From Nostoc sp. NMS2 (lineage in GTDB: Bacteria > Cyanobacteriota > Cyanobacteriia > Cyanobacteriales > Nostocaceae), in contig NZ_JABXKH010000031.1 of NCBI RefSeq assembly GCF_017115105.1, positions 1 through 64,000 on the forward strand: a stretch of DNA of 64,000 nt, read 5' to 3'. The notes beneath the pieces are model-generated. The model ran no database searches. It was not told the origin of the DNA and was given only the letters and a program-made list of their open reading frames with translations. The translations under genes and the position numbers were made by a program. Below, one piece after another: positions 8,783-40,848 of this stretch (its first letter is position 1; every line of letters begins with the position of its first letter).

Positions 8783-9091
8783 GGGGGAGTGGGGAGTGGG
8801 GAGTGGGGAGGTAGGGGAGGCAGGGGAGCAGGGGAGGCAGGGGAGGCAGGGGAGCAGGGGAGCAGGGGAGCAGGGGAGGCAGGGGAGGCAGGGGAGGCAG
8901 GGGAGGCAGGGGAGGCAGGGGAGGCAGGGGAGCAGGGGAGGCAGGGGAGGCAGGGGAGCAGGGGAGGCAGGGGAGGCAGGGGAGGCAGGGAGGCAGGGGA
9001 GCAGGGGAGGCAGGGGAGCAGGGGAGCAGGGGAGGCAGGGGAAGAAGAACTATTTATTGATTATTGACCAATGACAAATGACAAATGACCA
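8783..9091. repeat. GGGGAGGCA / GGGGAGCA tandem array
   Basis: About 250 bases (roughly 8800-9045) consist of alternating 9-base GGGGAGGCA and 8-base GGGGAGCA units, strongly purine-rich on the + strand. It is followed by TGACAAATGA heptamer-type repeats up to the start of the recombinase gene. ORFs across it encode Gly-Glu-Ala or Arg-Gln-Gly runs and are products of the repeat. Confidence 0.9.
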
Positions 9092-35990: not shown

Positions 35991-36014
35991 AACCCTCACC
36001 AGTTGCGTAATAGC

Positions 36015-36170
36015 TTAGTGAGTTAAGTAAGCAAGACCAACAAGGAGAGCTAAAAGCCCTACAGCAGTCAACGCAAAATGCTTCAGGGAAGTTGCACCTT
36101 TCCGCACCATGTTTCGCATGGCGAGTTTTACGTAGCTAGGTTGAGGTTCTGTTGAAGGAGAGTTGCTCAT
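36015..36170 (-). CDS. DUF3285 small membrane protein
   Basis: A 51-residue protein from ATG 36170 (M-S-N-S-P-S). A conserved basic segment (YVKLAMRNMVRKG) is followed by one transmembrane helix (about residues 30-49). It matches the cyanobacterial DUF3285 family in length and layout. The function is unknown; it is probably a thylakoid or plasma membrane protein. The longer frame from 36239 has no similarity upstream. Confidence 0.85.
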   Translation of the reverse strand: MSNSPSTEPQPSYVKLAMRNMVRKGATSLKHFALTAVGLLALLVGLAYLTH

Positions 36171-36292
36171 AGTTATTTGCCTACAGACTCTTTTATAACT
36201 GTAACAGTTGGTCTGGGACAGAATGGCGATCGCTTGCATATTACTCAGAAATTTCTCTGAAAACGCCCCAATCTGAAATCCTCAAAAATCAA

Positions 36293-36335
36293 AAGTGCTA
36301 AGTAATGTTAAAAATCATTACTTAGCACTTGTAAA
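36293..36335 (-). terminator. Terminator of prfB
   Basis: A perfect 15-bp stem (AAGTGCTAAGTAATG with its complement, 36293-36307 and 36316-36330) and, on the minus strand, TTTTGATTTTT after it. It lies just after the prfB stop. Confidence 0.88.
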
Positions 36336-36345
36336 TAATCCCAAA

Positions 36346-37468
36346 TTATGATTCAGGATTTTCTACTAATTTGTTTTCTTGTCGTAAATAAGCCTGGATG
36401 AATGTATCAAGTTCGCCATTCATTACATCGCCAATCCCCGTTGTTTCTGTATTTGTACGTAAATCTTTCACCATTTGATAAGGGTGAAATACATAGTTAC
36501 GGATTTGGTTTCCCCACGAGGCCTCGACCATATCGCCACGAATTTCGGCAATTTCTTGGGCGCGTTGCTCTTTGGCGATAACCAAAAGCTTTGCTTTGAG
36601 GCGATTTAGGGCTTTCTCTTTATTTTGCAGCTGCGATCGCTCTTCTGTACAGCGCACGGCAAGACCCGTGGGAAGGTGAACAATCCGCACCGCAGTTTCT
36701 ACTTTGTTGACATTCTGCCCACCTTTACCACCAGACCGGGTTGTGGTGATATCCAAATCTTTATCTGGAATATCCAATTGCACAGAGTTATCAATCTGTG
36801 GCATTACTTCCACCCCTGCAAAACTAGTTTGTCGTTTACCGTTGGCATTAAAAGGGGAAATCCGCACTAAGCGATGTGTACCCATTTCTGAACGCAAGTA
36901 ACCATAAGCATAGCGACCAGTAATTTCTAGGGTTGCCGATTTAATTCCGGCTTCATCACCTTTCGACTCTTCAGCTAAAGTTACCTTATAGCCATGAGCT
37001 TCGCCCCAACGGATATACATCCGCATGAGCATAAATGCCCAGTCTTGGGAATCTGTGCCACCGGCACCAGCACTAATCGTCAGTACAGCACCTTCTGCAT
37101 CATAAGGGCCAGAAAGTAACTGTTGTAACTCCCACTGATCCAGGTCACGATTCAGTTTAGTGATGGTAGATTCCGCTTCTTGGAGTAATGCCTCATCGGT
37201 TTCTAACTCCAACAACTCAACAACTGCCCTAGTATCTTCTAAATTAGCGTGCCAGCGATCGTATTGCTGGAGGTGGGCTTTTAGGTCGTTAAGTTCTTGT
37301 AGCGTTTGTTGGGCCTGGGTTTGGTCATCCCAAAATTCTGGCTGTGCTGATATTTTTTCGAGGTCTTGAATTTTGGCTGTCAGTGCAGGTACGTCAAAGA
37401 TAGTCCTGGGTTTTACCCAGGCGGCTAGACAACGTTTCGATTTCGCGTTTTAGTTCTAGGACATCCAT
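36346..37468 (-). CDS. prfB: Peptide chain release factor 2, with programmed +1 frameshift
   Basis: Terminates translation at UGA and UAA. The zero frame starts at ATG 37468 and reads 24 codons to CTT followed by TGA (37396-37394). Reading resumes in +1 as D-V-P-A-L-T and continues to 36346, giving 373 residues, the normal RF2 length. The frameshift site is C-T-T-T-G-A-C with CCCAGGAC as the internal Shine-Dalgarno-like element just upstream, as in classic RF2 autoregulation. Visible domains are the codon-reading SPF tripeptide in RISPFNANG and the catalytic GGQ in [12 protein letters not shown] paralogue lies just upstream on the same strand. Confidence 0.96.
37394..37402 (-). promoter_or_regulatory. 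RF2 frameshift site (CTTTGAC) in prfB
   Basis: The minus strand reads C-C-C-A-G-G-A-C-T-A-T-C-T-T-T-G-A-C. The AGGA element is followed by TAT CTT TGA. The in-frame TGA at 37396-37394 is bypassed by a +1 shift when RF2 is scarce. Confidence 0.93.
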
Positions 37469-37584
37469 AATGCTTGCTGAATGATAAATAGAGCGCTTTG
37501 GATTAAAAAATTGCTCTTTATTCTACTTATGTTTCTTGATTTTAGCTGTAGTTGGACAAATTTTTTCTGCACTAGTTACAAAAG

Positions 37585-38755
37585 TTACTTGAAATTATCA
37601 AGTGCTTCTTTACCCACTGAAGTAGTGTGATTTAGCTGTTGCAGATAGGCTTTGATAAACAAATCAATTTTACCGTCTAATACCTCTGTCGCAGCAGGTG
37701 TTTCTACATTGGTACGTAAATCTTTCACCTTGGTGTAAGGATGCAAGATATATTCCCGGATGAGCTTGTTGGATAGAGATTGGATGAGCCGAGGTTGAAT
37801 TGCTTCAACTTGCTGGACATTTTGGGCTAGTGCGTAGGCGTAGCCAGCCGTAGGCATCGCAAACAGTTTACTCTTGAGAATAGCTAAGGCTTTCTCTTTG
37901 TTTTGCATCTGACTGCGCTCGTTATTAGAAATCACAGAAATTCCGGTAGGAATATGAACTACCCGCATTCCTGTTTCGGTTTTGTTTGCGTTTTGACCAC
38001 CACGGCCAGAATATTTTAATGAGGTAATTTCCAAATCCTTCTCTGGAATCTCAAAATCAATAGACTCATCTAAAATCGGGCTGACTTCTACACTGGCAAA
38101 GCACGTGTGCCGCTTGCTGTTGCTGCTAAAGGGAGAAATTCTTATTACGCGATGCGTTCCTTGTTCTGATTTAAGCAGACCATAGGCGTAGCGCCCTGTA
38201 ATTTCTAGGGTTGCATATTTGAACCCTCCTAAATCACCTGCGGACTCTTCCACTATATCTAGATATACTTTCTGATTATGATTTACTGCCCAACGATGAT
38301 ATAGCTGCAATAACATCGCTGCCCAGTCTTGGGCATCTATACTTCCAACCTCTGCTGTAATTGTCAAGAATGCCCCCTTTTGGTCGCAGGGGTCAGACAT
38401 TAATTGTTGTATTTCTACTGTTTCGAGTTCTTGCTGGAGTTGGGTAAGGTTGGTTTGCGCCTCTTGCAGCAATTCCTCATCAACAGATAATTCTAGTAGT
38501 TCTAGTGCAGCCTTGATATCTTCTAGAATAAAGTGCGATCGCTGATATTGTTTCTTTGTAGCGTTGAGGGATTCAATTTCTTGAAGTGTCTGATAGAAAG
38601 TGACATAATTATCCCCAAAAGTAGCTTGAGAAATTAATTGATTCAACTTTTCAATTCTTGAACACAGTTCTGGGAGGTCAAAGACAGCCTTCAGCCTTGG
38701 CCAAGATATTAGACAACCTTTCTACTTCGCGTTTGATATTTAAGAGTTCTAGCAT
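37585..38755 (-). CDS. Divergent RF2 paralogue with its own programmed frameshift
   Basis: ATG 38755 reads 25 codons to CTT-TGA (TGA at 38680-38678). The +1 frame then gives D-L-P-E-L-C-S-R and continues to 37585, for a total of 389 residues. The body aligns with RF2 along its length, with [25 protein letters not shown] including SPF, and YSGRGGQNANKTETG including GGQ. It is much more divergent than its neighbour and lacks the [10 protein letters not shown] motif (EVGSIDAQDW instead). A 29-base palindromic repeat (GCGATGCCTACGGC core, near 37832-37861) is inserted in frame after L-F. A specialised termination or rescue role is possible. It may also be a decaying duplicate, but the open frame argues against that. 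Confidence 0.9.
38678..38686 (-). promoter_or_regulatory. RF2-type frameshift site (CTTTGAC) in the paralogue
   Basis: The minus strand reads G-A-A-G-G-C-T-G-T-C-T-T-T-G-A-C. AAGG precedes TGT CTT TGA with spacing like that in prfB. The TGA at 38680-38678 must be bypassed to make the full protein. Confidence 0.9.
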
Positions 38756-38794
38756 GGTTTTGCTCACTTGAGGCTGAACTTATCTACATATTCT

Positions 38795-38893
38795 AATACG
38801 GTTCAGTTAAGGGTTACTGGCAACAATTTTGGGTTTTCAAGACGCGATAAATCGCCGTCTCTACAAGTGTTTTGGGCTTATCTGAACTGTATT
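38795..38893. mobile_element. MITE-like element upstream of the RF2 paralogue
   Basis: AATACGGTTCAGTTAAG at the left and, inverted, AATACAGTTCAGATAAG at the right form 17-base inverted repeats with two mismatches. The interior has AAGACGCGATAAATCGCCGTCT, an inner palindrome. It ends 40 bases before the start codon of the 38755 gene, so it lies in its leader or promoter. A degenerate relative is near 2020-2090. Confidence 0.75.
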
Positions 38894-38920
38894 GCTACAT
38901 ATTCTACTATTAAAACGATA

Positions 38921-38957
38921 AAAAACCGTGGTTGCTAAAAATTTAACCACGGTTTTT
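38921..38957. terminator. Terminator of the Bax-inhibitor-1 gene
   Basis: AAAAACCGTGGTT (38921-38933) and AACCACGGTTTTT (38945-38957) form a 13-bp stem with A- and T-runs on both strands. It follows the minus-strand gene that ends at 38997. Confidence 0.88.
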
Positions 38958-38996
38958 AATTTATAAAACTTTACTTTTGTGATTGCCTACAGACAA

Positions 38997-39725
38997 TTAA
39001 TCGCGGCCATTGATGGCAATTAGCAACCGCAAGATGAAGACGAACAAGTTGATGTAGGTGAGGTACATCGACAAAGCAGCAGGCAGATATTGGTCATCGC
39101 TGTAAGTGCGGGGCAAAATATAGAAATCGACAACAGAAACCCCAACAAACAGAAATACTCCTAAACCGGAGATGGCAATTTCTAACCAATTTGGCGTGTA
39201 AACACCAAACATAGCAAAGCCGAATTGCGCTAAACACACAACCACCAAGGCGATAACACCAAGATTGATGGTTTTCGTCAAAGCCATCCCATCTTGTTCA
39301 GAGAGATTTGAACCTATTTGACGGGCGAAAATAAAAGTAACGCCACAACCAAGGGCTGCTAAACCAATGCCTTGAATGCCAACACCCTGGGATCTCAAAG
39401 CGACAAATACCAAGCCACTGAGAGTATATCCAGACAACAAGCTGTAGGTTGCCAACAGGGGTAGCGCAAGACCCTTGTTACCTTTTTGAGCAACATTTTG
39501 GGCAACAAAAAACAAAATTAACTCTAAAATCACCGCACCAATGAAGGTGGGAAAGAATATTCCGGGGTTAGTACGGATAACTCCCAAACCACCGTAGGTT
39601 CCTAATGCCGTTAGCACCAATCCACCACCGACGTAGGGGAGGGCGTTGGCAATCACGTTTGGGCCAACGAGGGCGTGAGATTTAGCCTCACGGATAGCTT
39701 CACGAAAATTACTGGTATTGCTCAT
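38997..39725 (-). CDS. Bax inhibitor-1/YccA-family membrane protein
   Basis: A 242-residue protein with seven hydrophobic segments after a 20-residue polar N-terminus, the layout of the BI-1/TMBIM family. The C-terminal part ends in YLTYINLFVFILRLL followed by charged residues, as in the family, where acidic residues gate proton-sensitive calcium leak in bacterial homologues. The Y-I-L-P-R-T-Y-S-D-D-Q segment is the usual loop before the last helices. The physiological role in cyanobacteria is unknown. It is monocistronic with its own terminator. Confidence 0.88.
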   Translation of the reverse strand: MSNTSNFREAIREAKSHALVGPNVIANALPYVGGGLVLTALGTYGGLGVIRTNPGIFFPTFIGAVILELILFFVAQNVAQKGNKGLALPLLATYSLLSGYTLSGLVFVALRSQGVGIQGIGLAALGCGVTFIFARQIGSNLSEQDGMALTKTINLGVIALVVVCLAQFGFAMFGVYTPNWLEIAISGLGVFLFVGVSVVDFYILPRTYSDDQYLPAALSMYLTYINLFVFILRLLIAINGRD

Positions 39726-39903
39726 ATTGAAAAACTGTTTTTTAGGAAAACGTTCTGCCTATTCCTATTCTTACCAAGATTTTGGGCGATAAACCAACAA
39801 GGGGTTACGCAAGTTGGGAGACAACTAAACAAAAAAGATTATGCAAAGTTGAAATTTTATCTATAAAACAAACATAAACTGCAACAGTTATGGAAATAAA
39901 ATC

Positions 39904-40848
39904 ATGCGTACAAATACTGAATTGTGGAGTGCGACCCCTCACAAGTTCAGTGAAACGACGATGGCTTATTCAGCCCTAACTAAGGAAAATAATGACAGCT
40001 TAGAAGAAAATATACGCAACTCTATTTTCTCAGAAATTAGGAGTTACAACAAAGGAATGTATATGGCAACAAGTGAGTCCTCTTTACGAACTGATGGTAT
40101 AGAATTATTACACTTGTACCACCAGAATCCTTCTATTAAACTTCGTAATAAACTTGTACAATTACATACTGGCTTAGTACGGAAGATGGCTCATAAATTC
40201 AGCCATCAATGTAATGAACCTTATGAAGATTTAGAACAAATTGGTTATTTTGGTTTGATTAGAGCTATTGAGCGTTTTGATCCTAGCCAAGGATATGCTT
40301 TTAGTTCTTTTGCAGTGCCATATATTCGCGGTGAGATGCTGCACTTTTTGCGCGATCGCAGTACTTTATTAAAAATCCCCCGTCGTTGGCAAGAATTATA
40401 TAATGAAGGGCAAAAAATTCGCAAGGACTTAGCAATGTCTTTAGGTCGCCAGCCCAAGGATGCTGAAATTGCCAGCCAACTCCGAGTATCTGTGCAAGAA
40501 TGGCAAGAAACAAAGTTAGCTGCTCAAAATCGGATGCCTTTGAGTTTAGATGCAACCGCAGTGAACTATATTGATTGCCAAATAACCTTAGGTGAAGCAC
40601 TTCCTTGTCCTCGTTCTCATGTTCTTTTACAACAAGAAGAAGAACGCCAACAACTGCAAGGTGCAATCAATATGTTGGAAGAAAAGCCCCGCATGGCAGT
40701 TGAAATGGTATTTTTAAAGGAACTTTCTCGCAAGGATGCTGCTAAAAATATCGGCACTAGTCCGATGACAGTAACGCGGTATCTGCAAAAAGGAATTCAA
40801 GATTTGATTTGTTATTTGCAACCACAGGTAATGCCCACAGGTTCGTAG
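39904..40848 (+). CDS. RNA polymerase group 3 sigma factor (SigF/SigJ-like)
   Basis: A sigma-70-family protein of up to 314 residues. Region 2 contains HTGLVRKMAHKFSHQC, EDLEQIGYFGLIRAIERFDPSQGYAFSSFAVPYIRGEMLHFLRDR (regions 2.1-2.4). Region 3 follows (IPRRWQELYNEGQKIRKDL), then region 4 with the helix-turn-helix KELSRKDAAKNIGTSPMTVTRYLQKGI. Region 1 and the group 1/2 linker are absent, which places it in group 3. Cyanobacterial SigF and SigJ control pili, envelope or stress genes; which one this is remains open. The start is uncertain: ATGs at 39961 and 40060 lie closer to the conserved part. Confidence 0.88.
   Translation: MRTNTELWSATPHKFSETTMAYSALTKENNDSLEENIRNSIFSEIRSYNKGMYMATSESSLRTDGIELLHLYHQNPSIKLRNKLVQLHTGLVRKMAHKFSHQCNEPYEDLEQIGYFGLIRAIERFDPSQGYAFSSFAVPYIRGEMLHFLRDRSTLLKIPRRWQELYNEGQKIRKDLAMSLGRQPKDAEIASQLRVSVQEWQETKLAAQNRMPLSLDATAVNYIDCQITLGEALPCPRSHVLLQQEEERQQLQGAINMLEEKPRMAVEMVFLKELSRKDAAKNIGTSPMTVTRYLQKGIQDLICYLQPQVMPTGS

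Follow-up and report, generated by a model that had tools for sequence, protein, structure and literature searches.

The programmed frameshift of prfB, the gene of release factor RF2, has to our knowledge been held to serve the autoregulation of RF2 alone. A published survey of 8,164 prfB motifs reported TGA at the shift site in 98.6%, TAA in 1.4% and TAG in none (PMC12421855). In land plants, an RF2 paralogue without release motifs, PrfB3, has been kept for another role and stabilizes petB mRNA (PMC5897788). Conserved in-frame stops with a ratio of nonsynonymous to synonymous substitution rates (dN/dS) below 1 behind the stop have been described in bacterial genes (PMC7918605), and gene conversion between RF1 and RF2 over domain 3 is on record (PMC4530459). 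Here, we describe RF2b, a second RF2-like gene directly upstream of prfB in Nostoc sp. NMS2, which lies in a stretch of 64,000 nucleotides (nt), hereafter the window (assembly GCF_017115105.1, contig NZ_JABXKH010000031.1, positions 1 to 64,000 of the forward strand). No description of a GGQ-less or tandem cyanobacterial RF2 was found among the titles and abstract openings listed by searches of an open-licence library.

RF2b appears to be an RF2 that has been disarmed yet conserved, behind one or two putative recoding gates. It resembles prfB and its product in fold, domains, leader length, the CTT-TGA-C site with its Shine–Dalgarno-like (SD-like) stretch and the neighbouring locus. Nevertheless, there are clear differences: the two products are 50% identical (over 374 columns, E 4e-134), the GGQ motif of peptide release has been lost from 59 of 60 RF2b copies with a readable loop, the stop at the shift site can be TAG or TAA, codon 193 is a TGA in 16 genomes and the gene is frequently lost. 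The likeness to PrfB3 lies in the missing release motifs, but PrfB3 is a plant nuclear gene for plastids, in whose description, as far as the accessible text goes, no frameshift or UGA gate is seen (PMC5897788); separate origins are assumed for the two. Unlike the conserved in-frame stops of other bacterial genes, that of RF2b sits in a paralogue of the UGA-reading factor and is stacked on a frameshift stop. We give a probability of about 0.5 to the reading that RF2b is an old RF2 paralogue which has lost release chemistry and is kept as an RF2-fold, non-hydrolysing regulator made when stops are read poorly. Since GGQ is mostly gone and stop codons have to be passed, RF2b seems better suited to gauge or brake termination than to stand in as a spare release factor. 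The features of the locus in the window are as follows.

38681–38755, (−): RF2b leader, 25 zero-frame codons MLELLNIKREVERLSNILAKAEGCL, with ATG at 38755
38688–38692, (−): SD-like GAAGG shortly 5' of the RF2b shift site, read from the sequence
38677–38683, (−): RF2b frameshift site CTTTGAC (CTT 38683–38681, TGA 38680–38678, then C)
37585–38679, (−): RF2b main frame (+1), 364 codons, with TAA at 37587–37585
38176–38178, (−): RF2b codon 193, CTG (Leu) in this copy
38128–38136, (−): RF2b SPF motif, residues 207–209
37993–38001, (−): RF2b GGQ motif, residues 252–254
37933–38028, (−): 96-nt segment of RF2b around GGQ; by DNA comparison, its flanks match other RF2b alleles
36346–37468, (−): prfB (RF2), ATG at 37468, 24 leader codons, frame open to 36346
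37393–37399, (−): prfB frameshift site CTTTGAC
38997–39725, (−): membrane-protein gene bordering the locus on the side opposite prfB

This layout bears out a preliminary description made from the DNA alone. The coordinates place the second RF2-like gene on the same strand as prfB, with 116 nt between its stop and the prfB start; frame reading gives 25 codons, CTT-TGA-C and a +1 continuation of 364 codons; GGQ and SPF are both intact in this copy; and the body is, at the identity given above, very divergent. A GTG 12 nt upstream of the leader ATG is a second possible start, and GAAGG or GAGGA forms are the commonest SD-like stretch at this place among RF2b copies.

The membership of RF2b was examined with family models. 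The Pfam PCRF and RF-1 domains were matched by RF2b, far above the gathering cut-off, and by prfB. With the NCBIfam prfB model TIGR00020 (cut-off 370 bits), RF2b fell below the cut-off at 352.4 bits, compared with 488 for the window prfB; it likewise stayed below the cut-offs of the NCBIfam models for PrfH (TIGR03072; 90.2 against 166.65 bits) and ArfB (YaeJ; PRK09256; 29.6 against 100 bits). The predicted structure model of a GGQ-less relative has the RF2 fold; a first prediction, with a mean predicted local distance difference test score (pLDDT) of 44, was set aside. The domain-3 loop could be read in 60 copies, 55 of which have neither GGQ nor a near form; four carry HGQ, DGQ or NGQ, and the window copy alone carries GGQ. 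The common form in the genus is short by four residues (RHRG----NVNRPETW and the like). The window copy, like many others, has SPF; most alleles of the TGA type have SPV. Two off-locus RF2-like genes, L264 (genome G365) and L265 (genome G411; with GGQ), were excluded, since each is likely a further RF2 or a contaminant, and L265 is absent from the loop and shift-site counts.

The reading frame of RF2b has been preserved. In each of 31 copies chosen as near-intact, 30 from the genus of the window and one (L025) from a different genus, an ATG leader is retained with no stop ahead of the shift site, at a leader dN/dS of 0.20, and the layout is therefore not a chance one. Over the frame, dN/dS is about 0.3–0.4, against 0.05 for prfB, and carriers of the codon-193 TGA are no more relaxed than sense copies; the 17 copies without TGA in this comparison include L025. 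L173 (deletion) and L177 (frameshift) were dropped from the dN/dS and stop counts, and L150 and L189, with one more stop each, were kept. These values support purifying selection on the family as protein-coding sequence, along with an apparent requirement for frameshifting that is old and conserved.

The shift site itself varies in a way that prfB does not. In 67 readable RF2b copies it is CTTTGAC in 57, CTTTAAC in five and CTTTAGC in five, whereas prfB has CTTTGAC in all 90 readable loci (95 examined; an odd match in L153 is incidental). The frames of the five TAG copies are open over 334–361 codons; of the TAA copies, two are open (L233 and L235), two carry body stops (L231 and L243) and one, L152, is a remnant. 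The claim of a feedback frameshift exactly as in RF2 is thus borne out only in part, given TAG or TAA in 10 of 67 copies and a gene lost or broken in many relatives. RF2b keeps a prfB-type frameshift on a protein mostly without release chemistry, in some lineages with TAG or TAA; there, the frameshift must therefore serve something other than RF2 autoregulation, or nothing. At L260 (G451:C1:1844200-1849700), three RF2-like genes stand in tandem, two RF2b (CTTTAGC and CTTTGAC) and prfB, each with a frameshift leader.

The genus survey covered 53 genomes, 52 of them with a prfB locus (G321 gave no prfB match). RF2b has TGA at codon 193 in 16 and a sense codon in 18, is a remnant in ten and is missing in eight; an alternative listing reads 15/18/11/8, because the RF2b of G329 sits on a second contig (L193, a TGA carrier that runs off its contig). 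L166 was counted as lacking RF2b despite a weak C-terminal match. A wider search took in 217 genomes of the family and 291 of the order, drawn evenly; those with extra matches went through a second search (20 + 20), and regions were retrieved from many of them. RF2b also adjoins prfB in further genera of the family as well as in families f2 and f33, and remnants occur in f12; in family f21, L235 is a clade member on a contig other than that of prfB. In a protein tree of 48 rows, all 23 RF2b group on a single branch, apart from prfB and other RF2, with a Shimodaira–Hasegawa-like approximate likelihood ratio test (SH-aLRT) support of 100 by a quick method, and this branch spans several families. 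Most simply, therefore, RF2b would stem from one old duplication followed by many losses. At L190 (G338:C3:966000-971000), it is prfB that seems split, by a one-base shift near residue 71, whether through an error of sequencing or through true damage to an essential gene.

The second gate is the TGA at codon 193, in the context YAYG-x-LKSE. Elsewhere, this codon is TGG (L183), TAC (a second allele type), TGC (L174), CTG (window) or CTC (L186); E. coli RF2 has Trp at the matching residue. The base after the TGA is C in 13 of 14 copies, the exception being L150, which has another stop. Downstream of the TGA, 14 carriers have no further stop where 20.7 would be expected (P about 1e-9), and upstream two against 29.7; the 15 sense copies have one against 20.3 and none against 30.8, respectively. 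The P values ignore recombination. On the flanking-gene tree, TGA occurs on deep branches (L153 + L188, L165, L176 + L189) and shallow ones, the distribution of TGA and sense codons requires at least six changes and the two kinds of allele interleave. In the sister pair L153–L188, the downstream dN/dS is 0.28. On this evidence, we lean slightly towards true readthrough.

Other explanations of the codon-193 TGA were considered and set aside. Reinitiation behind it finds no nearby in-frame ATG, GTG or TTG common to carriers; the first column that holds at least four is some 49 codons further downstream and shows no conservation. Synonymous constraint as a cis signal was rejected, as the synonymous rate (dS) is equally low in alleles without TGA. 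For a dedicated UGA suppressor tRNA, the 53 genomes were scanned for GGTCTYCAAAACC, which also matched TTCAAA sites and returned 30 loci; ARAGORN, run on 17 of the 30, gave no tRNA at 12 TTCAAA sites and tRNA-Trp(CCA) at five of five CTCCAAA sites. The TGA carriers G168, G240 and G316 have the CTCCAAA match alone, although a suppressor with other stem letters would escape this search. Among the selected loci L271–L294, GGTCTTCAAAACC, which is not a tRNA, turns up repeatedly close to contig ends in several genomes of the genus and is perhaps the end of a mobile element.

From the observed genes, sites, motif loss, selection, clade and locus, we infer a course of frameshifting, readthrough and protein action. 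With UGA decoded slowly, ribosomes could shift to +1 at the first stop; in TGA alleles they could also read through the second, so that full-length RF2b would there need +1 frameshifting and then UGA readthrough; a near-cognate tRNA-Trp would insert Trp at codon 193. RF2b output should then rise as UGA is read more slowly. By sitting on terminating ribosomes, the protein could compete with RF2 and would then also raise prfB frameshifting; alternatively, it could bind RNA, as the RF2 paralogue PrfB3 of plants does. We favour neither role over the other. The GGQ-mutant RF1(GAQ) is known from structures on ribosomes (6gwt, 6gxn), and competition with RF2 is therefore conceivable for a GGQ-less RF2 that has kept its binding. 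Constant blocking of termination by a disarmed factor would be costly, but may be limited by the altered recognition loop. A more elaborate proposal combines two RF2-read stops (a shift at UGA and readthrough of UGA-CUR) with a product that would rise steeply as RF2 falls and would then compete on ribosomes or protect RNAs, the gate having been re-set to RF1 by UAG elsewhere and the window species re-armed by its GGQ segment; this we offer only tentatively, as rather unlikely in its entirety. The second UGA, lying in frame in a relative of the UGA-reading factor, offers a natural example of putative stacked recoding that would be easy to test, and annotation pipelines would be expected to label many RF2b genes as pseudogenes.

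Several observations weigh against the regulator reading. RF2b is reduced to remnants in 10 of 52 genomes of the genus and missing in 8 of 52, and in family f2 it is weakly constrained (dN/dS 0.42–0.79). UAG is read by RF1, and the RF2b of the TAG lineages (five open copies) therefore cannot report RF2. Another lesion is present in four of the 16 TGA copies (L150, L173, L177 and L189); lesions are about as many among the 18 sense copies (clearly in L144, L174 and L184, with L160 short at its end). The invariance of the TGA exceeds that of fourfold sites only weakly (P 0.02–0.08). Over 27 codons around it, mean dS is 0.08–0.13, compared with 0.28–0.35 downstream, so recombination may have moved this segment and, with it, lately spread the TGA, and part of the downstream constraint may predate the TGA.

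These last values bear on the alternative that survives best, in which the RF2b protein is functional but the TGA at codon 193 is not read through and makes for a null or truncating allele, spread by recombination. The low dS, the mosaic alleles and the interleaving of TGA and sense alleles on the flanking-gene tree would all fit. However, 14 carriers without a single further downstream stop, the downstream constraint in L153–L188 and the presence of TGA on deep as well as shallow branches speak against it, and we regard it as possible, though on the unlikely side.

The losses raise the question of whether RF2b is instead a slowly decaying pseudogene family, with the codon-193 TGA and the TAG shift sites as ordinary lesions. 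The preliminary description had named body stops in relatives as counting against a functioning factor, and this was found in part: besides the remnants and absences, several full-length copies have extra stops or frameshifts in the body, whereas others are intact. Decay would account for these copies and for the weak constraint in f2. It is unlikely, nevertheless, as the stops in both TGA and sense copies fall far short of the expected number, the frame dN/dS is well below 1 with TGA carriers no more relaxed, and leader and frame are kept in every near-intact copy (a set chosen as near-intact).

A working second release or rescue factor, as first proposed, is doubtful. The proposal draws on the window copy, with its GGQ, SPF and open frame, and on the RF2 fold modelled for a GGQ-less relative, but the other 59 readable copies are without GGQ, and, besides prfB for RF2, the genome already encodes RF1 (an RF1-like gene) and a protein taken for ArfB-like (a short frame of 139 amino acids with an RF-1 domain). 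The window copy nests within the GGQ-less clade beside L163 (support 98). On both sides of its GGQ loop the DNA is 91–100% identical to other RF2b alleles, which look mosaic in general, and the 96-nt loop segment has its best DNA match in prfB, at 78% over 69 nt. Recent conversion from prfB was rejected on account of this low identity and because no close copy of the segment was found among 208 genomes of the family. The simplest reading is that the window copy is a recombinant allele with a prfB-like GGQ segment probably acquired from an unsampled source; an ancestral GGQ retained in this lineage alone is a possible alternative. The case resembles RF1–RF2 gene conversion in the exchange of a segment around GGQ between release-factor genes (PMC4530459), but differs in that the donor was not found in our searches and the receiver is a GGQ-less paralogue. 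As its GGQ looks acquired later, the window copy is unrepresentative of the family; it may have regained release activity, and its GGQ segment rests on one assembly. Thus, of the original proposal, protein-coding selection stands for the family and release activity only as a possibility for this copy.

Finally, that the RF2b frame acts in cis as a prfB leader, and not via its protein, would suit its place directly 5' of prfB (102–165 nt in 29 of 29 copies measured) and the C-terminal ends that survive in some remnants, but is very unlikely in view of the amino-acid constraint along the frame, the eight genomes without RF2b, L235 on a contig separate from prfB and the absence of any Rfam match in window positions 36000–40000.

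Some minor features of the locus may be added. The final stop of RF2b is TAA in 27 of 29 copies, TAG in two and TGA in none. In L159 (G308:C137:89100-94100), an internal deletion almost joins the first 25 codons of RF2b to its last quarter-hundred codons. At window positions 37838–37860, inside RF2b, GCGTAGCCAGCCGTAGGCATCGC forms an in-frame insert giving MPTAGYAY, with which or without which orthologues occur; we take it to resemble the short dispersed repeats of Nostoc genomes. The membrane-protein gene at 38997–39725 is presumably TMBIM/Bax-inhibitor-like. Far from the locus, at 8789–9074, there is a low-complexity repeat of the GEAGE/RQG type with two frames open (open reading frames of 92 amino acids).
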